Of a DNA stretch of 21,436 nt, positions 8,235-21,178 are shown one piece after another (within the stretch, counting starts at the first letter, position 1; each line of letters opens with the position of its first letter). The stretch spans positions 1 through 21,436 of IMG/VR virus record IMGVR_UViG_3300032677_000190, one strand, 5' to 3'. The position numbers and the translations under genes are program-made. This stretch comes from a virus. Below the pieces are notes generated by a model. The model did not search any database, was not told the origin of the DNA, and saw only the letters and a list, made by a program, of their open reading frames with translations.

Positions 8235-9046
8235 TGGGATTTCCACTTAATCCACTCAATGGTAATGTAGCAACAGTAAATGGTATTACCTATACCTATA
8301 ACAGTGCTAAGACTGCTTGGTTGAGAGCCAGCACCACAGGTGCTAATCTCACTGCTAATAGCATGACATTAACATCAAATGCTATCTCTATATCTTCAAC
8401 ATCAGGGGCACTGATAGTCACAGGTGGTGCAGGCATAGGTGGCAATTTGTATGTGGCAGGATCTCTGTTTGGTAACATCACAGGTAACATCAACAGTACT
8501 GGAGGTAGTATAAATTCTAACACTGCTACGTTTAGTAATTTAATTTCAACGTCAGCAACCATTACAGGTAATATCACAGCTGGTAATGTGAATGCTACTT
8601 ATTTTGTAGGTACCCAATTACAAGGTAATCAACCTAATATCACCACATTAGCTAATATACAAATATATTCATTGGGTGTAGGAACCACTCCCTCACAGAC
8701 CCAAGGTGAAATACGTGCTACTAATGCTATCACATCATACTACTCAGATGAACGACTAAAAACACGTTTAGGTAATATTGAAAATGCCCTAGACAAAGTA
8801 GATCAAATCAGTGGATTCTATCATGAAGCTAACGATCTAGCATTAAGTTTAGGGTTTTCTAAAACACGTGAAGTTGGTGTAAGTGCGCAGGAAATACAAG
8901 CTGTGTTACCAGAAGTGGTAACACAAGCTCCAATTGATGAGCGATATTTAACAGTGCGTTATGAAAGACTAGCACCATTGTTAATTCAAGCGATCAAAGA
9001 ATTACATCAAGAAGTTAATGCTATTAAAAAACAGCTTGGTGGATAA
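8234..9046 (+). CDS. Tail fibre with S74 endosialidase-type chaperone domain
   Basis: This is a 270-residue protein. The N-terminus has the GITYTYNSAKTAWLR adaptor. The middle has the GALIVTGGAGIGGNLYVAG repeat, which also occurs several times in the fibre at 14453, and an NITGNI triplet region. Residues about 168-270 form a peptidase S74 intramolecular chaperone: SDERLK at 171-176 supplies the Ser171/Lys176 pair expected for self-cleavage, followed by VGVSAQEIQAVLPEVV, Y-L-T-V-R-Y, and a long C-terminal helix (LAPLLIQAIKELHQEVNAI) that forms a coiled coil. In this family the domain helps the trimer fold and then cuts itself off. The gene is the last in the fibre operon before the oxygenase island, and its start is coupled to the previous stop. 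Confidence 0.85.
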   Translation: MGFPLNPLNGNVATVNGITYTYNSAKTAWLRASTTGANLTANSMTLTSNAISISSTSGALIVTGGAGIGGNLYVAGSLFGNITGNINSTGGSINSNTATFSNLISTSATITGNITAGNVNATYFVGTQLQGNQPNITTLANIQIYSLGVGTTPSQTQGEIRATNAITSYYSDERLKTRLGNIENALDKVDQISGFYHEANDLALSLGFSKTREVGVSAQEIQAVLPEVVTQAPIDERYLTVRYERLAPLLIQAIKELHQEVNAIKKQLGG

Positions 9047-9047
9047 A

Positions 9048-9608
9048 ATGACTTTTGATCAATTCAAAGTCATAGACAATTTCATACCTTTATCATTACA
9101 AGAACAAATAAAGTCAACACTGCTGGGATCAAAATTTGCCTGGTACTACAATGTAGACGTGACATATGATGCTGATGCTCCGATGGATCGTAGGAATCCT
9201 GGATTTAGCTACTTGTTCAATCCAAATGATAATATAGCATCAGACATAGCAACATTAGCCTACACTGGTGCAATAACAGCAGGTATACAATACAAAAATA
9301 TCCTACAAGCTCGCGCATTCTTACAACTACCATTAAGTGAAACATTTTTAACCGCAGGTATTGATCCTTTACACATTGATACACAGACTACACATTTAGT
9401 AGTGCTGTATTATGTTATAGATTCAGATGGAGATACACTGTTAACTGACAGCACCCACTGTGATAGTTTTGAGGTTGAAGATCATACTATCATAGCACGT
9501 GTCACACCTAAACAAGGGCGTGCTGTGTTATTTGATGGCGGCTTGTACCACACAGCAGAACAACCAAAAAACAATGTTCGCTGTGTTATCAACCTGGACC
9601 TAGCTTAA
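9048..9608 (+). CDS. 2OG-Fe(II) oxygenase (prolyl-4-hydroxylase-like)
   Basis: This 186-residue protein is read from ATG 9048, one base after the preceding TAA. An in-frame ATG at 9018 lies inside the S74 gene and is less likely; GGTGG at 9038-9042 fits the 9048 start. The iron-binding triad of the double-stranded beta-helix fold is visible: H109-x-D111 (DPLHIDT) and H168 (LYHTAEQP), with R178 (NVRCVINLD) for 2-oxoglutarate. GRAVLFDGG before the distal His is typical. These enzymes hydroxylate protein side chains or small molecules with Fe(II), O2 and 2-oxoglutarate; the substrate is unknown. It sits between the S74 fibre and the Cys-tail genes, so a virion protein is a reasonable but unproven target. 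Confidence 0.8.
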   Translation: MTFDQFKVIDNFIPLSLQEQIKSTLLGSKFAWYYNVDVTYDADAPMDRRNPGFSYLFNPNDNIASDIATLAYTGAITAGIQYKNILQARAFLQLPLSETFLTAGIDPLHIDTQTTHLVVLYYVIDSDGDTLLTDSTHCDSFEVEDHTIIARVTPKQGRAVLFDGGLYHTAEQPKNNVRCVINLDLA

Positions 9609-9631: not shown

Positions 9632-9919
9632 ATGGCAACAACGATAGGCAACGGTATAGTAACATTTGGAGACGGAACCCGGCTGGGATCCGCTAATATC
9701 GCTTATGGTAATATCACTAACCCTAAAACCAATCTCAGTCAATTTACCAATGATTTAGGTAATTATGGTAGTTGGGTGACTGGAGCAACTATCAACACGA
9801 CCCCAGTCAGCACGGGTGCGTATGCAGATTTATGGTTGACAGTAGTAGGCACAGGTTCTAGTGCTACGCTAACTCTAAATCAAGATAACTGTAATTGTAA
9901 TTGTGCTTGTAACTGTTAG
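9632..9919 (+). CDS. Small fibre-like protein with Asn-Cys tail, copy 1
   Basis: This is a 95-residue protein. Residues 1-46 share a conserved block with the next two genes: IGNGIVTFGDGT, then a variable linker, NLSQFTNDLGNYG. Both pieces resemble phage tail-fibre motifs (FxDGTxxxxA and PTxLSxFTNDxGY). Residues 47-84 are unlike the other copies. The C-terminus from 85 is D-N-C-N-C-N-C-A-C-N-C, with cysteines at 87, 89, 91, 93 and 95, the last being the terminal residue. There is no other Cys and no signal peptide. All Cys codons are TGT. AGGAG lies 7 bases before the ATG. The tail could hold metal, form disulfides or be modified by the nearby radical SAM enzyme. I know of no named family with this ending. 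Confidence 0.8.
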   Translation: MATTIGNGIVTFGDGTRLGSANIAYGNITNPKTNLSQFTNDLGNYGSWVTGATINTTPVSTGAYADLWLTVVGTGSSATLTLNQDNCNCNCACNC

Positions 9920-9927
9920 GAACAATA

Positions 9928-10206
9928 ATGTCAACTACATTAGGTAATGGGATAGTAACTTTTGGAGATGGAACTAGCTTACACAGTTCACAGATCCAGC
10001 TGGCTAATGTAAGTGGAGTGCCAACGAACCTCAGCAGTTTTACTAATAATCTAGGTAACTATGGTGGGTTCTTTGACAGCACTTATTTCAGTGCTACAAA
10101 GTCAGGCAATGCTGGAGGTGGTGAGTATGGCCCAAGATTTTTATATTGGAACGGAAGTCAATTACAGATAACAGCCAGTAACTGTAATTGTAATTGTAAC
10201 TGTTAG
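9928..10206 (+). CDS. Small fibre-like protein with Asn-Cys tail, copy 2
   Basis: This is a 92-residue paralogue of the preceding gene. The N-terminal block is nearly the same (LGNGIVTFGDGTSL...NLSSFTNNLGNYG, residues 5-46). The middle (47-84) is different and includes a Gly-rich NAGGGEYGPR stretch and FLYWNGSQLQ. The tail is N-C-N-C-N-C-N-C, with cysteines at 86, 88, 90 and 92 and none elsewhere. The AGGA ribosome site overlaps the TAG stop of copy 1, 8 bases before this ATG, so translation is probably coupled. The pattern is a conserved head and tail around a divergent middle, which suggests a common attachment and a common tail function with variable surface sequence. Confidence 0.8.
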   Translation: MSTTLGNGIVTFGDGTSLHSSQIQLANVSGVPTNLSSFTNNLGNYGGFFDSTYFSATKSGNAGGGEYGPRFLYWNGSQLQITASNCNCNCNC

Positions 10207-10214
10207 GATAGAGC

Positions 10215-10544
10215 ATGTCAGAAATATTAGGCAATGGCAGTATTACATTTGGTGACGGGACTACGATGAGCAGTGCCATCGTCCCTTGGACTAATTTAAC
10301 CAATAAACCAACACAGTTAAGCCAATTTACCAATGACCTAGGTAACTACGGCAATTTTATAACTATTGCTAATATACAACAAGGTAGCCCAGGATATTAC
10401 GACAATCCCAACGGAGCCATTAATGCCTGTGGCAGTGGTCGTGGCGGTATAGGTCACTTGACCAGCGGTAGTTGGGGGCTTGAATGGAATAGCAATCTTA
10501 TCAAGCTGGCCTGTTATAATTGTAATTGTGCTTGTAACTGTTAA
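10215..10544 (+). CDS. Small fibre-like protein with Asn-Cys tail, copy 3
   Basis: This is the 109-residue third member. The head is LGNGSITFGDGTTM...WTNLTNKPTQLSQFTNDLGNYG (residues 5-46), the fullest match to the phage-fibre 'LTNKPTxLSxFTND' motif. The middle is longest here (47-98) and contains NACGSGRGGIGH, whose Cys72 is the only Cys outside a tail among the three proteins. The ending is A-C-Y-N-C-N-C-A-C-N-C, with cysteines at 100, 103, 105, 107 and 109. The last 26 coding-end bases are identical to those of copy 1 (9893-9918 and 10518-10543). A TTAGGA at the end of copy 2 serves as its ribosome site. The three genes form one cistron group, probably transcribed from the 9609 promoter. 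Confidence 0.8.
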   Translation: MSEILGNGSITFGDGTTMSSAIVPWTNLTNKPTQLSQFTNDLGNYGNFITIANIQQGSPGYYDNPNGAINACGSGRGGIGHLTSGSWGLEWNSNLIKLACYNCNCACNC

Positions 10545-10596: not shown

Positions 10597-11361
10597 ATGG
10601 ATTTTTATGCATTAACCACAAATAGAGATTTACCAACAAATGACATCACCATCACTGGAGATACATTAACCATCAACATTGTTGATTCTACTATGGCCAA
10701 TATATTTGGTAATACTAGTACCAGTGATAGTTTTAGTCTGAGTAGTTTGGTAACAGATTATGCCCAAGACCATGGATGTATAGCTATAATTCCACAAGGT
10801 ATGCAGGCTAATGCTAGAATGATGATTATAGAAACTACACAATTAAGTTATCCAGAACGTGCTACTCCAGGGGACAGTTACACATCATATCAAACCACTC
10901 CTGGTAAAAACTATGCTGGTAGTCCTTATAGTGTTATTGACAGTAGATATCGTTCATACGGATATGTTTATATCTTAACCCCAACAGCAACTTGTTCAGT
11001 AGATGATTGTACGGTTATTTACAGAGCTGCCAATGCTAATGTAGTAATGAATGGATCTACCATATCACCTATAGACACTATAGAGTCAACACATGCATTC
11101 CTACACAATTGGTTACCAATTACTATCACAGGTGCTGCAACAATCACAGCAGGATCAACGGCTACTTATACAGTTACAGGCACAGCTAACACCACAGTGT
11201 ATTTGTCTACAGACATTGGTGTAATTAATCGTAGTCGTGTTACAGAAAGCAAAACATTCCAATTGGATACTACTGGTCTTGAAGCTGGAGAAACTGTGAC
11301 TATCAAAGCTGGTTACAAGTATTGGAGCGGTGTGACTAAAATGGTGATCACACTTGAATAA
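10597..11361 (+). CDS. Unrecognised protein with Ig-like C-terminus
   Basis: This is a 254-residue protein preceded by AAAGGA. Residues about 165-254 have the alternation of an Ig-like/invasin-type beta sandwich: ITAGSTATYTVTGTANTTVYLS, then TFQLDTTGLEAGETVTIKAGY and a final KMVITLE strand. The first 160 residues are not recognised; they include IAIIPQGMQANARMMIIETTQ, a Tyr/Ser/Gly-rich stretch (about 85-125) and two close cysteines in TCSVDDC. Its 3' end overlaps the start of the next oxygenase by 8 bases, and that gene is coupled to the radical SAM gene, so all three are probably made from one message. It may be a virion protein that is the client of the two enzymes. That is inference from position only. 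Confidence 0.65.
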   Translation: MDFYALTTNRDLPTNDITITGDTLTINIVDSTMANIFGNTSTSDSFSLSSLVTDYAQDHGCIAIIPQGMQANARMMIIETTQLSYPERATPGDSYTSYQTTPGKNYAGSPYSVIDSRYRSYGYVYILTPTATCSVDDCTVIYRAANANVVMNGSTISPIDTIESTHAFLHNWLPITITGAATITAGSTATYTVTGTANTTVYLSTDIGVINRSRVTESKTFQLDTTGLEAGETVTIKAGYKYWSGVTKMVITLE

Positions 11362-11992
11362 CATAGTTTCACTATGGCCGACTAATGTTCTTTATGAAGC
11401 ACAAGCACCTGAAGCTACACAGGAATTTTTATCTGAAATCTTAGCCATTGGCGAAGAGTATGAAGCAGCTCATCCAGAAGCACATGTGCCAGCGGCCATG
11501 CGCACGAACAAAGAAAACGTTTACAACTTATTAGCAGATCCTCGCCCAGCATGTCAACTATTTAAACAGATGCTAAAGTCACGTATGCTAGACCTAGCAA
11601 GAGCAGAAGGATTTTTAAACAGTGTAGCGTTTGAAGCAGTAACTAGCCTGCGTAAGTTTGCGCCAGGAGAATATGCCAAACCACACAATCATCGCAGTGT
11701 TGACTATGTGGCAGTGTTGTGGATAGCCTTAGAAGACACAGACCCACCAAATAACAACACACATCAACGAATGACGGGTAATCGTTTACATTTAATTGAT
11801 CCAATGCCCTCACGCAGTCGTTTCTTAAACCATACCATGTTGTTTCCCATCAGCCCACGTGCTGGTACACTGCTGATACACCCAGCATCAACATTCCATA
11901 CCACAGAAGCTAATCTAGGTTCAGTTGATACTATAGCATTGGCTACTAACATTAAAGTTGTTGATCCAGCTAGGAACTATGTAACCTTATAA
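11354..11992 (+). CDS. 2OG-Fe(II) oxygenase, PF13759-like
   Basis: The product is 212 residues if it starts at TTG 11354, which overlaps the previous gene by 8 bases. GGTG at 11343-11346 is a usable ribosome site, and the family usually begins close to the 'LWPT' motif seen at residues 7-10. The core matches the putative 2OG-Fe(II) oxygenase family PF13759: HNH at 111-113, a following SVDYVAVLWIALEDTD strand, HLIDP at 146-150, a GTLLIHPAST strand and the distal His182 (TFHTTEAN). The usual Arg of the last strand is not obvious, since ALATNIKV takes its place. The stop overlaps the radical SAM start (TAATG), so the two are made together. The substrate is unknown; protein hydroxylation is the usual guess. 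Confidence 0.75.
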   Translation: MNNIVSLWPTNVLYEAQAPEATQEFLSEILAIGEEYEAAHPEAHVPAAMRTNKENVYNLLADPRPACQLFKQMLKSRMLDLARAEGFLNSVAFEAVTSLRKFAPGEYAKPHNHRSVDYVAVLWIALEDTDPPNNNTHQRMTGNRLHLIDPMPSRSRFLNHTMLFPISPRAGTLLIHPASTFHTTEANLGSVDTIALATNIKVVDPARNYVTL

Positions 11993-13341
11993 TGGCTAAG
12001 TTTACTATCCGTGCAGTTAAACCTATCACTAACGAAGAACACACATTTGTCTATGATAATCTAACATCTGAAATATTTGATGAACAGGGCAATTTAATCA
12101 AAGTTAAAAGTGATGAACAACCTAATTACAATGCTGTGTTTGCTACAAGCCAAGCAACTCCAGCAGGTAAAACAAAAGATATTAAAGTGTTAAAAATACA
12201 ACTAGGACTTAGTTGTAACTATGAGTGCGTTTACTGTAGTCAGAGATTTGTGCCGCGTGCTGATGAAACCAATAAAGATGATGTAGGCCCTTTCCTAGAA
12301 GAATTACCAAATTGGTTCCACCCTACAGATGATGTCAAAGTAGAATTTTGGGGAGGAGAACCTTTCGTCTATTGGAAAACCCTTAAACCATTGGCAGAAG
12401 GTATTCGTGCCAGATATCCCACTGCTAGATTTGGCATAGTTACCAATGGCACAGTATTAGATTTAGAAAAGAATGCTTGGTTAGACGAACTAGGATTTAC
12501 AGTGGGCATCAGTCACGATGGCCCTGGATACCATGCCAGAGGGTTAGATCCGTTTGATAACCCAGAACAGCTTGAGATGATTTTAGATCTGTGGCATAGG
12601 TTAGGCTCCCAAGGGCGTATGAGTTTTAATGCTATGATACACAAAAATAACGCTAGTCGCGGTGCTATAGTTGAGTGGTTTAAACAACGACTAGGATTTG
12701 ACGTGCCCATTGGCGAAGGTGGGTTTATTGACCCATACGATGAAGGTGGTGCTAGTGTTTGTATGACTGAAGCTGCGGATCATATTAATTATCGTAGTGC
12801 TAGTTTTGGTGAACTGCGCAAAGGACAAGCCAGTCATATAGACGCAGTTAACCGTAAGATTAATGATTTTATCAAAAGTATAGTAACACGTCGTCCCGCT
12901 ACGGCACTAGGACAAAAATGTGGTATGGATCGTGCGGACAATATTGCTGTAGATTTAAAAGGACAAGTGCTGACCTGTCAAAATGTATCAGCTGTAGCTA
13001 CTAGTTTTAACGGTGCTAGTCATCTAATAGGTAATGTAGCTGACTTTGACAATATTAAACTTACCACATCAACACATTGGAGTCATAGAGCTGAATGCCC
13101 TAACTGCCCTGTGCTACAACTTTGTCACGGTAGTTGTATGTTTTTAGCAGGCGACATGTGGGAACTAGCTTGTGATAACTCATATAGCGACAATATTCCA
13201 TTCTTTATGAGTGCTTGGGAAATATTAACAGGAACTATTCCCTACTATATTGATGGCCCACAAGCAGATGCACGCAAAGACATCATTGGTGCTGTTAATG
13301 GTGTACCTAAAAAGAAAGTTATTCCTATTCTAAGCGTCTAG
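11992..13341 (+). CDS. Radical SAM/SPASM enzyme, sulfatase-maturase or peptide-maturase type
   Basis: This is a 449-residue protein. An N-terminal extension (1-65) precedes the radical SAM core, with C75-x3-C79-x2-C82 for the SAM-binding 4Fe-4S cluster and GGEP at 121-124. The C-terminal SPASM domain is complete: C310-x13-G324-x4-C329, then C369-x2-C372-x5-C378-x3-C382, then C394, the pattern that binds two auxiliary 4Fe-4S clusters in anaerobic sulfatase maturases and RiPP enzymes. Members oxidise or cross-link Cys, Ser or other side chains of proteins or peptides. The start is coupled to the upstream oxygenase, and the Cys-tail genes end about 1.4 kb upstream. No recognisable peptide-binding RRE domain is seen in the N-terminal extension, though I cannot exclude one. 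The last 17 bases overlap a convergent gene. All metal ligands are intact, so the enzyme is probably active. Confidence 0.88.
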   Translation: MAKFTIRAVKPITNEEHTFVYDNLTSEIFDEQGNLIKVKSDEQPNYNAVFATSQATPAGKTKDIKVLKIQLGLSCNYECVYCSQRFVPRADETNKDDVGPFLEELPNWFHPTDDVKVEFWGGEPFVYWKTLKPLAEGIRARYPTARFGIVTNGTVLDLEKNAWLDELGFTVGISHDGPGYHARGLDPFDNPEQLEMILDLWHRLGSQGRMSFNAMIHKNNASRGAIVEWFKQRLGFDVPIGEGGFIDPYDEGGASVCMTEAADHINYRSASFGELRKGQASHIDAVNRKINDFIKSIVTRRPATALGQKCGMDRADNIAVDLKGQVLTCQNVSAVATSFNGASHLIGNVADFDNIKLTTSTHWSHRAECPNCPVLQLCHGSCMFLAGDMWELACDNSYSDNIPFFMSAWEILTGTIPYYIDGPQADARKDIIGAVNGVPKKKVIPILSV

Positions 13342-13765
13342 CCCAAGGATTAATACTGACCGCAATGCGGGTTCCTGTGTATGGGTCAACTTTGTGCATT
13401 AACCCTGCACTAAACAATACCAATCTATTTTCCACTGGGCGTATTATTTCGCTATTTGAAATAAATTCTCCCCCTGCTAGGTCTTGTATTTTAGCATAAT
13501 AGACCATACTGCACAACGGTAATTCTAACTGGCCTGATGTATGAAATAATTTTTCGTCTTTGTCTGTGTGCCAATCTAATCCCTGTTGATTACTATTACA
13601 CCAATACTCATAGCCAATCATACTAGATAAATCAATATATTGACCAGCAATAGCTAATAATGGCTGTAACGGACTACTGCCTTCAACCCAGCCATCAGTT
13701 TGAATATAATCTAAGACTTTTTGATTGTCGTTGTCAGATAATACATTATCTAAAACCACTAACAT
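13325..13765 (-). CDS. 2OG-Fe(II) oxygenase
   Basis: This is a 146-residue minus-strand protein, compact for the family. The iron triad is clear: H66-x-D68 (LDWHTDKD) and H124 (GLMHKVDP), with R133 (GTRIAVSINPW) for 2-oxoglutarate. LAGGEF at 96-101 is the usual strand between them. Its ATG lies inside the last codons of the upstream oxygenase (7-base overlap), so the two are co-translated. The 3' end overlaps the radical SAM gene by 17 bases in convergent orientation. It is only distantly similar by eye to the other three oxygenases here, so it is not a recent duplicate. The substrate is unknown. Confidence 0.8.
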   Translation of the reverse strand: MLVVLDNVLSDNDNQKVLDYIQTDGWVEGSSPLQPLLAIAGQYIDLSSMIGYEYWCNSNQQGLDWHTDKDEKLFHTSGQLELPLCSMVYYAKIQDLAGGEFISNSEIIRPVENRLVLFSAGLMHKVDPYTGTRIAVSINPWARRLE

Positions 13766-14301
13766 TTATTAAACACCATGGCCAAAGTAAATCTATAATG
13801 TGGTGCAGTATGTGATTGCGGGCGTATAGTGTGCGGAATCGTAGCATCAAACACAGTGATACGACCTGGAGTATATGGGGTAGCTAACACAATATTTTTT
13901 TCTGTTTCATCAAAAAACAGTGTTTCGCCATACCAGCAGTTATTCCAATGTAGATTAGCATAGTATAGCACAACTTTGTCTTCTGGGTGAGTGTGAACAA
14001 AGTGTGTGTCGCTTGGGGTGGAGAGATTTAATACTACCTTGCTGATTTTGTAATCATTTATTTCTTGTTGAACGGGAGACCTTGCAATTTTTTCTAATAA
14101 TTTCAAATAATCTAAATCTGCTTGATTAAATTCAGAATATAGATATTTGTGCTGTTGACGTTCTATACTATCTCCATCAGTCCACCCAATACTAAATTTA
14201 GCCTTAGTTACCGCGTCATATAGAAATTCTCTATAGTGTAGGTCAAAAACATCGTCGTATACGACGATTTTCTTACCCAAATCAACTGTATATTCTTTCA
14301 T
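13759..14301 (-). CDS. 2OG-Fe(II) oxygenase
   Basis: This is a 180-residue minus-strand protein. The proximal ligands lie in VHTHPED (H103, H105, E107); either an H-x-E pair at 105/107 or H103 must act, since no plain H-x-D is present. VVLYYANLHWNN, YGETLFFDE, PGRITVFDATIPH with H157 and HYRFTLA with R170 follow in family order. There is no ribosome site before the ATG. A consensus promoter lies at 14307-14336, so its transcript may start at or next to the start codon. The gene heads a two-oxygenase minus-strand unit set between plus-strand fibre and accessory genes, like an inserted moron. The substrate is unknown. Confidence 0.8.
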   Translation of the reverse strand: MKEYTVDLGKKIVVYDDVFDLHYREFLYDAVTKAKFSIGWTDGDSIERQQHKYLYSEFNQADLDYLKLLEKIARSPVQQEINDYKISKVVLNLSTPSDTHFVHTHPEDKVVLYYANLHWNNCWYGETLFFDETEKNIVLATPYTPGRITVFDATIPHTIRPQSHTAPHYRFTLAMVFNKC

Positions 14302-18037: not shown

Positions 18038-18772
18038 ATGTTAAACATTTCAAAACAGTATCGTACGAACTACACTGGTGAGGACATAATCACTGAACGC
18101 AAGCATGAAAATCGCATGTGGAGTGAAACTGTTGAAACAGTGCCTAATGCTGTTACCAACAATCAAATTTCAAATCGTGCTGTTATCATTGGTAATAGTC
18201 CAACTAGGTTAGATTTTGATTTAAACAATCTAAAACATGCCAGCGGTTTGTTAGGTGCTAATACTTTACAAACCTATGGGTGTAATGCGCTATATAGAGA
18301 TTTTACACCTGATTTTCTAGTAGCACAAGGTAACGACATGGTTGATGAGTTGGCCAAAAGCTCTTATCCAAGAAATAATATCGTCTATACCAATGCTATA
18401 AATTTATTAGCATATCCAAATACATTTTATCTTATTCCATACAATCCTTATGCTGACAGTGGTACAACTGCTGCCTACATAGCTGCATTTGATGGACACA
18501 AAAAAATCTATCTATTAGGCTTCCATGGACAGGATACACCAGGAATAAACTTTAATGTCTATTCTGGAACCAATGCCTATGACGCTGAAGAATCTGATGT
18601 AGGTAGTGATAAATGGACAAACAATCTCACACAATTATTCACAGTCTATGATGATGTTGATTTCGCTTGGGTTACCAACCGTGGTACCAGCACAGTACCA
18701 GACTGCTGGAAACCTTGCCAAAATTTACGTCAAATATCATTTAGAGATTTCGTAGTAGAAGCTGACTTATAA
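18038..18772 (+). CDS. MptE/DUF115-like Rossmann protein, possible glycan-linked enzyme
   Basis: This is a 244-residue protein with AAAGGT before the ATG. Residues 47-65 (AVIIGNSPTRLDFDLNNL) match the nucleotide-binding start of the MptE-like/DUF115 fold, also used by GT42-type sialyltransferases (G-N-x-P-S/T). This is followed by Y-G-C-N-ALYRDFTPDF (80-93) and by SGTTAAYIAAFDGHKKIYLLGFHG (141-164), the 'SG..A...A...G...I.LLG.D' segment. Such proteins are linked to glycan or pterin metabolism and to flagellin glycosylation, so a role in sugar decoration is possible. The position right after the long tail fibre hints at a fibre or surface target. The first 45 residues are not recognised. The family is moderately sure; the reaction is unknown. 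The 3' end overlaps the convergent Nudix gene by 6 bases. Confidence 0.55.
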   Translation: MLNISKQYRTNYTGEDIITERKHENRMWSETVETVPNAVTNNQISNRAVIIGNSPTRLDFDLNNLKHASGLLGANTLQTYGCNALYRDFTPDFLVAQGNDMVDELAKSSYPRNNIVYTNAINLLAYPNTFYLIPYNPYADSGTTAAYIAAFDGHKKIYLLGFHGQDTPGINFNVYSGTNAYDAEESDVGSDKWTNNLTQLFTVYDDVDFAWVTNRGTSTVPDCWKPCQNLRQISFRDFVVEADL

Positions 18773-19246
18773 GACTGATTCTAATGTCTTAATCTTTGCA
18801 CTTACCGCATCAAAATTAATAGTACGCCAAACACCAGGATGTAAAGGTTTAGGATGATCCTCTAATGCTACCCAGCAAAAGCCACGATGTTCAAAATTAA
18901 GTTTGGGTGTGAATTCTTCGTCTACTGGAATTAAGAAAGTATTGTAACTGAACTTACCGTTGTCACTGGTAAATTTTTCTATGGGGATGACTTTGACATC
19001 TTGGAAGTTGTAGCCCAATTCTTCGCTGAGTTCTCTATACAAGCTGGTTAACAGCAGTTCACCAGCATCAATCTTACCACCAGCCAGGCCCCAAGTACCA
19101 CTATACTTGTCACCGTCACGTAATAGGAAAAGATAACGACCTGTTGAAACACTGTAGATGAAAGTGCCTACACCTTCTATAAGACCAGTGTCCAAAGACC
19201 GTTTTTGTGTTGAAGTTAGCATAAAAATTAAAGAACTAAAGTCCAT
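18767..19246 (-). CDS. Nudix hydrolase
   Basis: This is a 159-residue minus-strand protein. The Nudix box is complete: G57-x5-E63-x7-R71-E72-x2-E75-E76-x-G78-Y79. The glutamates bind Mg2+ for hydrolysis of a nucleoside diphosphate linked to another group. A YLFLLRDGDKYSGTWGLAGG strand precedes it, and a C-terminal GFCWVALEDHP segment is also typical. The start at 19246 overlaps the gp15-like gene by 19 bases; an internal ATG (Met9, 19222) is possible but has no better ribosome site. The substrate cannot be read from sequence; phage Nudix enzymes act on ADP-ribose, dNTPs or cap-like ends. It sits downstream of a tail gene and is probably co-transcribed with it. Confidence 0.85.
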   Translation of the reverse strand: MDFSSLIFMLTSTQKRSLDTGLIEGVGTFIYSVSTGRYLFLLRDGDKYSGTWGLAGGKIDAGELLLTSLYRELSEELGYNFQDVKVIPIEKFTSDNGKFSYNTFLIPVDEEFTPKLNFEHRGFCWVALEDHPKPLHPGVWRTINFDAVSAKIKTLESVL

Positions 19247-20652
19247 CCACCATTTTTATATTCGCCTTCAAAACTCTTCACCCATTGATTGAGATTCCAT
19301 TTATATTGAGTTCCAGTTGTTAGATTGCTTACATATTGTACATTAGCTTGATTCTGGCTGTCAAATGAAACAGTCCAATGTACGCCAGTATATTGTATGA
19401 TGTCGTTCGCATGACAGACTAAATCTACCCCATCAGTACCGCGCCATAGTGTTGGTCCGCTGCTTGGGGCAGCATTGGCACTACCAACATCACCTAGGAT
19501 CAAATATCTGGTACCAGCTGATGGATGAGTGATACTGGATGTTAAACTTGAACTAGTTGGGTTGATGATAGCATTGATTGGAGTTAGTGTGTTACCTGGG
19601 ATAGTATCAATGTCTACGTTAAATAACATCAGCGTAGGATCTGTTGGGTGATAGCTGACGGTACCAATGACTTCTGAGACGCCATCTGGTTGTAGCAAAC
19701 GCACTTCACTGATGCCAGGACTTAGATTACCATAGATGTTGACAAACGCCGCCCAATTATCAGGAGTACCAACTTTGACTGGAGTACCAGAGATATCTTC
19801 GCCACCAATGTCACGGGGTGTTTCTATATCCTGTTGTTTCAACAGTGTCAAGGTGTTGCCAATCAACAGCGTACCATAGTTCAATGGAGTGAAGTATTGG
19901 CGATTACCTAATAGATTATCTTCGTTTAATACACTGTCGCTGAGATTACCATCGCTGTCATGTATGCTGGCAACGATCTTTTGGATGACACCAAGTTTCT
20001 TAACTTTAGCTGGAGGACTAATCCACACAGGTAGTTTGAATGTTAATGTAGCAACATCAATGGGATTATCTGTACCAATAGGCACTGATCTTGTATTCCA
20101 ATTTGGACTTTCTAAATAAACAACGCTTAGGCTAGTCCAATCAATGTAGTTGTCTGTTGACTGTATCTCCATGGCTGGATTAAACAATACTATCAACTGT
20201 TCTAATAACTGTAATTTTTGTTTGGTGTTACTAGTCCAAATATCTAACTTCAATTCTATAGTATAAGGCACAGGCATGCTGCGTTCAATGGTAAAAGCAT
20301 TGCCCTGTTTGTCTTCATACTCCATGGTGTCTTCATTGTAATACTTTTGGCGTATCTGCATCTTGCCAACAAAGTCAGGTTGTTGCACGCGATCTCTATC
20401 ATAGGTAATATTATTGATATACACAGTCATAGCTGGTGTTGCATTCATGATATTTGGTGCACTATTCTGTGTGATAATCTGTGCTACTTGGCGACTACCA
20501 TCACCCCAATAAACAGGCACACGTTGTAGAGTTTGATGCCCATTACGATCAAATCCAAACTCAACTTGGAAACCTGATACCATACGAACAAACTGTGCTA
20601 GGAATCGTTCTATCTGAGCGTCATAAAAGAAGCTCTGATTAGCAGTTGTCAT
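19228..20652 (-). CDS. 15: Tail completion/sheath stabiliser protein, T4 gp15-like, extended
   Basis: This is a 474-residue minus-strand protein. Residues 1-240 follow the order of T4 gp15: FFYDAQIERFLAQFVRMVSG (compare T4 YFYN..FRRY), QRVPVYWG, MTVYINNITYDRDR, PVPYTIELKLDIWTSNTKQK, LLEQLIVLFNPAMEI and LTFKLPVWISPPAKV. In T4, gp15 caps the tail tube and sheath and joins the tail to the head. T4 gp15 is 272 residues, so this protein has about 200 extra C-terminal residues, beta-rich and ending with a W/Y-rich block (IIQYTGVHW...TGTQYKWNLNQWV...GGWTLVL). A strong AAGGAG inside the upstream endonuclease gene precedes its ATG. The gp15 assignment rests on motif order remembered from T4, not on an alignment. 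Confidence 0.75.
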   Translation of the reverse strand: MTTANQSFFYDAQIERFLAQFVRMVSGFQVEFGFDRNGHQTLQRVPVYWGDGSRQVAQIITQNSAPNIMNATPAMTVYINNITYDRDRVQQPDFVGKMQIRQKYYNEDTMEYEDKQGNAFTIERSMPVPYTIELKLDIWTSNTKQKLQLLEQLIVLFNPAMEIQSTDNYIDWTSLSVVYLESPNWNTRSVPIGTDNPIDVATLTFKLPVWISPPAKVKKLGVIQKIVASIHDSDGNLSDSVLNEDNLLGNRQYFTPLNYGTLLIGNTLTLLKQQDIETPRDIGGEDISGTPVKVGTPDNWAAFVNIYGNLSPGISEVRLLQPDGVSEVIGTVSYHPTDPTLMLFNVDIDTIPGNTLTPINAIINPTSSSLTSSITHPSAGTRYLILGDVGSANAAPSSGPTLWRGTDGVDLVCHANDIIQYTGVHWTVSFDSQNQANVQYVSNLTTGTQYKWNLNQWVKSFEGEYKNGGWTLVL

Positions 20653-21178
20653 TTGCTAACTCCTTTGATAATTTTTTATTTTTTTGATACTCTGACATTC
20701 TGATTGAATGCATAGCTTTAGCCTCCTCACTCCATTTAGTAGACGGTTTACCTTTCTTTGGATGAGGTTTACTAAATTTATATCCACTTTTTTTATTAAC
20801 AGTTTCTACACCACCATTTGCTTCACGACGTCTGGTATGGGCTGCCTTTTGTGCGATGCGCATTTTTTCTATACTTTCTTGGTTATGTGTTTTATTATTA
20901 CCACCGTTTCTAATATTGAAGCCATTCTCAATACTATTATATTCTTTAATATATTTTGTTTCTAATAAATTTAACTCATCTAAATTAGATGCAGTATCAA
21001 TAACTTCAAATGTAAATGCATCTTTGCCATATTTTCTTAATGCATTATGAAAACGATGAGTTCTTTTTGTATATCTGCTGTCTGATAGATGTTCTAATCT
21101 ACGACGATTGGGTTCTTGTATAGTTTGCCCTATATAAACTCTACTAGTATCAATATGAGTAAATTTATAGATATACAT
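20639..21178 (-). CDS. GIY-YIG homing endonuclease
   Basis: This is a 179-residue minus-strand protein. The nuclease domain (1-90) has YIYKFTH and VYIGQT (the GIY-YIG pair), RRRLEH at 25-30, and the catalytic Glu in LLETKYI (E73), followed by NGFNIRNGG. The C-terminal part is very basic and contains SGYKFSKPHPKKGKPS and SEEAKAMHSIRMSEYQ, which look like NUMOD-type DNA-binding motifs. It is a free-standing homing endonuclease with no intron visible around it. Its ATG overlaps the preceding stop by one base (TAATG), and its end overlaps the gp15-like start by 14 bases, so it has no promoter of its own. It would cut alleles lacking the gene near this site. Confidence 0.87.
   Translation of the reverse strand: MYIYKFTHIDTSRVYIGQTIQEPNRRRLEHLSDSRYTKRTHRFHNALRKYGKDAFTFEVIDTASNLDELNLLETKYIKEYNSIENGFNIRNGGNNKTHNQESIEKMRIAQKAAHTRRREANGGVETVNKKSGYKFSKPHPKKGKPSTKWSEEAKAMHSIRMSEYQKNKKLSKELANDNC

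Follow-up and report, generated by a model that had tools for sequence, protein, structure and literature searches.

Alternating (X-Cys)n tails on phage fibre-like proteins and a linked radical SAM/SPASM enzyme: a probable substrate and its maturase

The locus and its genes

The window, by which we mean the whole stretch of DNA analysed, is a 21,436-base IMG/VR virus fragment from a contractile-tailed phage. Its minus strand matches the tail sheath stabiliser family phrog_227 as well as phrog_11196 ('tail sheath'), and its plus strand encodes a series of fibre-like proteins. No direct nucleotide match was found among cultured phages. Three adjacent plus-strand ORFs encode mini-fibres with Cys-rich C-termini. 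Downstream of them lie c1, c3 and a radical SAM gene, each overlapping the next (Table 1).

Table 1. Mini-fibre genes and cassette genes of the window
Feature	Coordinates	Strand	Length	Remarks
Mini-fibre 1	9632..9919	+	95 aa	tail NCNCNCACNC; first of conserved tandem triplet; presumed substrate
Mini-fibre 2	9928..10206	+	92 aa	tail NCNCNCNC; presumed substrate
Mini-fibre 3	10215..10544	+	109 aa	tail NCNCACNC; presumed substrate
c1	10597..11361	+	254 aa	beta-rich, Ig-like C-terminal half
c3, 2OG-Fe(II) oxygenase-like	11354..11992	+	212 aa	TTG start, overlaps both neighbours
Radical SAM/SPASM enzyme	11992..13341	+	449 aa	PHROG 1802; presumed maturase of tails

A first-pass annotation, made from the sequence alone, had described three ORFs of these positions and lengths, each with a conserved fibre-type head, an unrelated middle and a conserved tail under selection, each ending in Cys, in a window whose structural proteins otherwise nearly lack Cys. 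It also knew of no named family with such an architecture. All of these claims held. The three heads share the motif (I/L)GNGxxTFGDGT...PTxLSxFTNxLGNYG. In an alignment of 24 members the heads are well conserved and the middles cannot be aligned; N102, C103, C105, C107 and C109 of the tail are invariant and N104 is nearly so. Cys is the C-terminal residue of all three mini-fibres and makes up 4.4-5.5% of their residues, against 10 of 4125 (0.24%) in the other plus-strand structural ORFs. The tails consist of N, A and C only, and mini-fibre 3 has two additional Cys beyond its tail. Searches of Pfam, NCBIfam and PHROG gave nothing above sub-cutoff noise for the mini-fibres, and no tail-fibre PHROG was matched. 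The fold could not be predicted, the AlphaFold model of a mini-fibre being unusable (pLDDT 46). The first-pass claim would have been refuted by homologues that lack the tail as often as they carry it; six head relatives were retrieved by a search that ignored the tail, and every one terminates in (NC)3 or more, two of them at only 38% identity.

The tandem triplet is present in all ten genomes of the window's lineage that were examined, and additionally at locus L381. Best matches between genomes keep the triplet position in 71, 49 and 73 of 90 comparisons for the three members, where 30 are expected. In 8 of 10 genomes the first member carries five X-Cys pairs; the other members have four. 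This conservation of position and of pair number suggests three non-interchangeable subunits, and it is possible, by inference, that the mini-fibres of this lineage form a hetero-trimer.

The product of c1 is found in 58 of 79 non-redundant cassettes and merges with cluster 22 by profile comparison. Its AlphaFold model is confident (pLDDT 88). Foldseek searches with this model returned only local Ig-like matches in the PDB, and the only full-length matches were uncharacterised phage proteins; c1 could be a scaffold or a recognition factor. The oxygenase-like protein c3 is present in 44 of the 79 cassettes. It scores 26.5 bits against the PF13759 cut-off of 27, 16 of 26 members match that family, and the putative iron ligands H111 and H182 (H-x-H/E/D...H pattern) are invariant. 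An obligatory 2OG partner was considered and rejected, as such a protein is missing from whole groups of loci (e.g. L004 and L006).

Several further genes were observed around this and related cassettes. In the window, the cassette is flanked by a further three proteins of the 2OG-Fe(II) type, at 13759-14301 (-), 13325-13765 (-) and 9018-9608 (+). The first resembles NCBIfam FlmC (E=5e-18, below cut-off); FlmE/OhkG is the NCBIfam name of a family of radical SAM/SPASM peptide maturases. The last matches PHROG 274 'DNA endonuclease V' but is weakly a 2OG-Fe(II) oxygenase by Pfam, and the PHROG 274 label may be wrong. At four other loci (L135:4298-5818, L139, L160 and L198) the interval from the NC fibre to the radical SAM gene holds proteins with histidine boxes like those of membrane fatty-acid desaturases, together with several 2OG-like proteins. 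A TRAP-transporter solute-binding protein DctP (PF03480, E=4e-40) is encoded shortly downstream of the radical SAM gene at L004:4014-4961 and at 7 other loci. Elsewhere in the window are a GIY-YIG homing endonuclease-like protein at 20639-21178 (-), MYIYKFTHIDTSRVYIGQT..., and a Nudix hydrolase-like protein with sub-cutoff NCBIfam matches at 18767-19246 (-).

The repeat and the proteins that carry it

The tail is kept at the level of protein and is not a DNA microsatellite. This follows from codon changes among position-matched relatives, where 270 synonymous and 73 non-synonymous changes were counted in tail codons, compared with 517 and 495 in the head codons of the same relatives. As a background figure, 4 of 2467 opposite-strand ORFs have an (X-Cys)n tail. 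Among 159 distinct repeats the residue X is Asn in 65%, Ala in 16% and Asp in 8%; Arg, Gln, Val and Tyr occur there only rarely, and the constancy of Cys is built into the repeat definition used. In fibre bodies Asn precedes 105 of 142 Cys, against a background of 9% Asn. Some repeats contain no Asn at all (ACACDCVCDCACAC, at L333, L337, L338 and L340) and accompany the same enzyme family. These are useful for telling possible chemistries apart.

Beyond what the first-pass annotation had described, the same tail is borne by large and otherwise different tail fibres of many phages. Its carriers range from 72 to 726 aa. The collagen-like fibre L137 (Pfam Collagen, E=1e-33) is one of them, and long tail-bearing relatives match several PHROG tail-fibre families (L137 matches phrog_5073, E=2e-70). 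The tail therefore acts like a tip module that can pass from one fibre to another. Clustering the fibre bodies by single linkage told us nothing useful, because most of them were chained together through shared modules.

In 138 of the 159 distinct repeats the repeat ends no more than 8 residues from the C-terminus. Nearly all of the others lie before a Hint domain or before a second Cys-rich run nearer the end. A Hint domain directly follows the repeat in Achromobacter phage JWF gp028, in phage 2-1 and in others. The families tested were PF05203 and PF01079; in JWF gp028 the match is to PF05203 (E=3e-12, residues 308-344), and the last Cys of the junction, ...KPRQNCNCDCNCNCSCFPAGTMVLMADG..., is the start of the Hint domain. 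A Hint domain of this type cleaves the chain at the domain's own first Cys, and the mature end would therefore again be the repeat. At 15 or more enzyme loci the repeat abuts such an autoprocessing domain, which could possibly re-expose it. Since the repeat is at the C-terminus or could be re-exposed there, its position at the chain end seems to matter. Providencia phage PSTNGR1 has the Hint form without the repeat and without an annotated radical SAM gene nearby.

A different repeat was observed at L274, L370 and L372 (Parasutterella and related viral contigs), where a divergent relative of the radical SAM enzyme adjoins a protein with (NCTTV)n repeats. This is perhaps another repeat grammar for the same enzyme family.

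The enzyme and its linkage to the tail

The operon neighbour of the mini-fibres passes the thresholds for both domains of a radical SAM/SPASM enzyme: it scores 33 bits against PF04055 (gathering score 29.5) and 32.9 bits against the SPASM model TIGR04085 (cut-off 27). The CxxxCxxC motif (C75, C79 and C82) is invariant in 27 diverse relatives, as are the seven SPASM cysteines of two auxiliary clusters (C310, C329, C369, C372, C378, C382 and C394). It belongs to PHROG 1802 (E=7.6e-65), 'radical SAM domain-containing protein', which was previously without an assigned substrate or role. The phage 2-1 enzyme, which is annotated by reference to the JWF gene, is also a member. The two best-scoring NCBIfam models are PapB (best E=7.6e-21) and QhpD (2.7e-19), each matched by all 27 enzymes. 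These maturase matches are all far below the family cut-offs, and the reaction cannot be read from them; naming the enzyme as an anSME, PapB, QhpD, DynA or SCIFF maturase was rejected on this ground.

The linkage was established in both directions. IMG/VR was scanned with a DNA pattern that covers the final five Cys codons plus the stop and is blind to the enzyme. It matched 115 stretches, 48 of which are in frames that are not genes and served as an internal control. In 33 matches the pattern closes a gene in frame and at least 4.5 kb of sequence follows; for 32 of them a script found a same-strand radical SAM gene no more than 6 kb downstream of the tail. At the 33rd (L088) the gene is present and was missed when its over-extended ORF start overlapped the tail ORF, so that the hand-checked count is 33/33. 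None of the 48 control loci, where the pattern was not at a gene end, has a radical SAM/SPASM gene (Fisher p about 2e-23).

The opposite search began from relatives of the enzyme, with 425 in viral contigs (best 80 kept), 99 in bacterial genomes and three further seeds. It yielded 176 distinct phage and prophage loci with at least 4 kb upstream. At least 168 of these have an (X-Cys)n fibre upstream of the enzyme, 153 as C-terminal (X-Cys)n ORFs and 15 as repeats followed by a Hint domain. The linkage extends to bacterial prophages and to enzymes just 32-45% identical. Six to eight of the 176 loci have no tail within reach. Among the eight left over, L341 carries the repeat plus Hint, L172 has a short ACNC...ACDCG end and L369 contains only an enzyme fragment. 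The radical SAM genes of Campylobacter phages belong to another family, and no tail of this kind lies close to them. Comparative genomics thus shows that the fibre tails are co-inherited with the enzyme across great evolutionary distances, the pattern of a substrate and its maturase. The first-pass annotation had suggested looking for co-occurrence with radical SAM or 2OG genes without naming this partner. The radical SAM association is strongly positive, and the 2OG association held in part, being common and not obligatory.

Interpretation and comparison with known systems

The mini-proteins are likely tail-fibre tip proteins whose (X-Cys)n C-termini are the substrate of the radical SAM/SPASM enzyme, possibly with thioethers as the product. 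We give this reading a probability of about 0.75, and no biochemistry or proteomics supports it as yet. Its parts are not equally secure. That the tail and the PHROG 1802 enzyme form a substrate-maturase pair is very likely, although action on the repeat is inferred from genomics. A location at the tip of the tail fibre is likely, the place in the virion again being an inference. That the product consists of Cys thioethers is also inferred, and it could as easily prove wrong as right. The thioether reading rests only on PapB and QhpD, both formers of Cys thioethers, heading the list for 27/27 enzymes. A PapB-type link from Cys to Asx cannot be the whole story because Asn-free repeats exist and Ala is a poor beta-carbon acceptor.

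In the mechanism we propose, the cassette of substrate fibres, Ig-domain protein, 2OG-type oxygenase and radical SAM enzyme would be a phage RiPP maturation system acting on a part of the virion. The enzyme would modify the tail before or during assembly. Less certainly, it would form thioether links from Cys to neighbouring residues, as in PapB and QhpD; the 2OG-type oxygenase, where present, may hydroxylate or otherwise tailor the same region; and the product may be a rigid, redox-stable, covalently stapled fibre tip for adsorption. One RiPP-like trait is met in that the substrate gene adjoins a conserved modifying enzyme. No leader-removing protease was recognised among the commonest cassette genes, and Hint would cut after the repeat, not before it.

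Four other explanations were considered. In the first, the radical SAM enzyme epimerises residues of the repeat, and the resulting alternating D/L peptide forms a beta-helix tip without thioethers. The strict two-residue period with variable X (N, A, D, V, Q) would fit action on every second residue, and the epimerase YydG is among the structural-database matches of the enzyme. However, the YydG match (4.8e-7) is far weaker than those to PapB, QhpD and anSME, the enzyme has the full SPASM cysteine set, and the fixed residue is Cys and not X. We consider epimerisation unlikely. In the second, the tail binds a metal or Fe-S cluster, or forms a disulfide knot, without the help of any enzyme, and the radical SAM neighbour serves another purpose. 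CxC strings are good metal ligands and three chains would gather 12-15 Cys. This is hard to reconcile with the near-absolute two-way linkage to a single enzyme family, which holds across great divergence and across phages of different types, and with the unrelated radical SAM genes of Campylobacter phages that lack the tail; it too is improbable. In the third, the mini-proteins give rise to a modified peptide that is released (a phage RiPP, e.g. one directed against competitors) and are not virion parts. Their size (81-121 aa), a head that could be a leader and the adjacent modifying enzymes speak for it. We doubt it, given that the same tail closes collagen-like and other fibres of 300-700 aa inside tail operons, the head resembles fibre modules, and the commonest cassette gene clusters include no recognised protease or exporter. 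The fourth, that the short, regular repeat is a DNA artefact of microsatellite slippage or misassembly, is all but excluded, as synonymous codons vary where residues stay and the repeat occurs in hundreds of assemblies, cultured phages and bacteria.

Under the substrate-maturase reading, the PHROG 1802 enzyme gains a clear candidate for its substrate, namely the end of a tail fibre that probably faces the receptor. Radical SAM genes of phages are usually filed under auxiliary metabolism. Tail and enzyme are found paired in hundreds of environmental phages, and also in cultured bacteria as part of their prophages. Radical SAM/SPASM maturation of repeat peptides is known; to judge from what we could find, applying it to the tips of phage tail fibres is new. 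No published description of the system was found in the literature searched, which left most subscription journals outside coverage; a paper on pelagimyophages only mentions radical SAM cassettes in the host-recognition region (PMC7029224). If true, the reading would mean new virion chemistry and an explanation for PHROG 1802. Achromobacter phages JWF and 2-1 and Limnohabitans prophages would be tractable systems for the effect of a crosslinked tip on adsorption, and the family would supply enzymes for modifying large proteins that carry simple X-Cys tags. A bolder version, on which we would bet slightly against, is that many types of tailed phage carry a dedicated radical-SAM machine that covalently staples the C-terminal (X-Cys)n tips of tail fibres, with Hint as an alternative means of exposure and a three-chain hetero-trimeric tip in the window's lineage. 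That would be a post-translational modification not known for any virus particle.

The nearest likeness is the PapB/freyrasin ranthipeptide system, in which a radical SAM/SPASM enzyme acts on a Cys-repeat peptide. PapB joins Cys to Asp or Glu via thioethers (PMC9413430). The window enzyme fails the PapB model NF047865 (55.6 bits against a curated cut-off of 340). PapB substrates pair Cys with Asp/Glu acceptors, whereas the window tails hold only N, A and C, and Asp is 8% of X overall. The phage substrate further differs in being an alternating X-Cys run at a fibre end, with X mainly Asn and Ala, and in having no small leader peptide. The quinohemoprotein amine dehydrogenase maturase QhpD puts Cys thioethers into a structural protein and not a natural product. 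It is a host enzyme acting on a dehydrogenase subunit, its substrate is not known to carry (XC)n, and the phage enzyme matches it below cut-off. Anaerobic sulfatase-maturating enzymes (anSME) resemble the phage enzyme as SPASM proteins that modify Cys or Ser of large proteins, and the JWF copy is so annotated in GenBank; none of the tails listed contains their C/S-x-P/A-x-R target motif, and the window enzyme reaches 37.6 bits against a cut-off of 349. The His-Xaa-Ser (HxsA/B/C) and Cys-every-fifth systems also set a short-period repeat protein beside radical SAM maturases, but their repeat is different, matches to them are below cut-offs and they have no known link to phage fibres. Peptidase_S74 chaperone and Hint auto-cleavage systems likewise process the C-termini of tail fibres. 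Those systems remove a domain, whereas here the exposed end is itself the conserved repeat.
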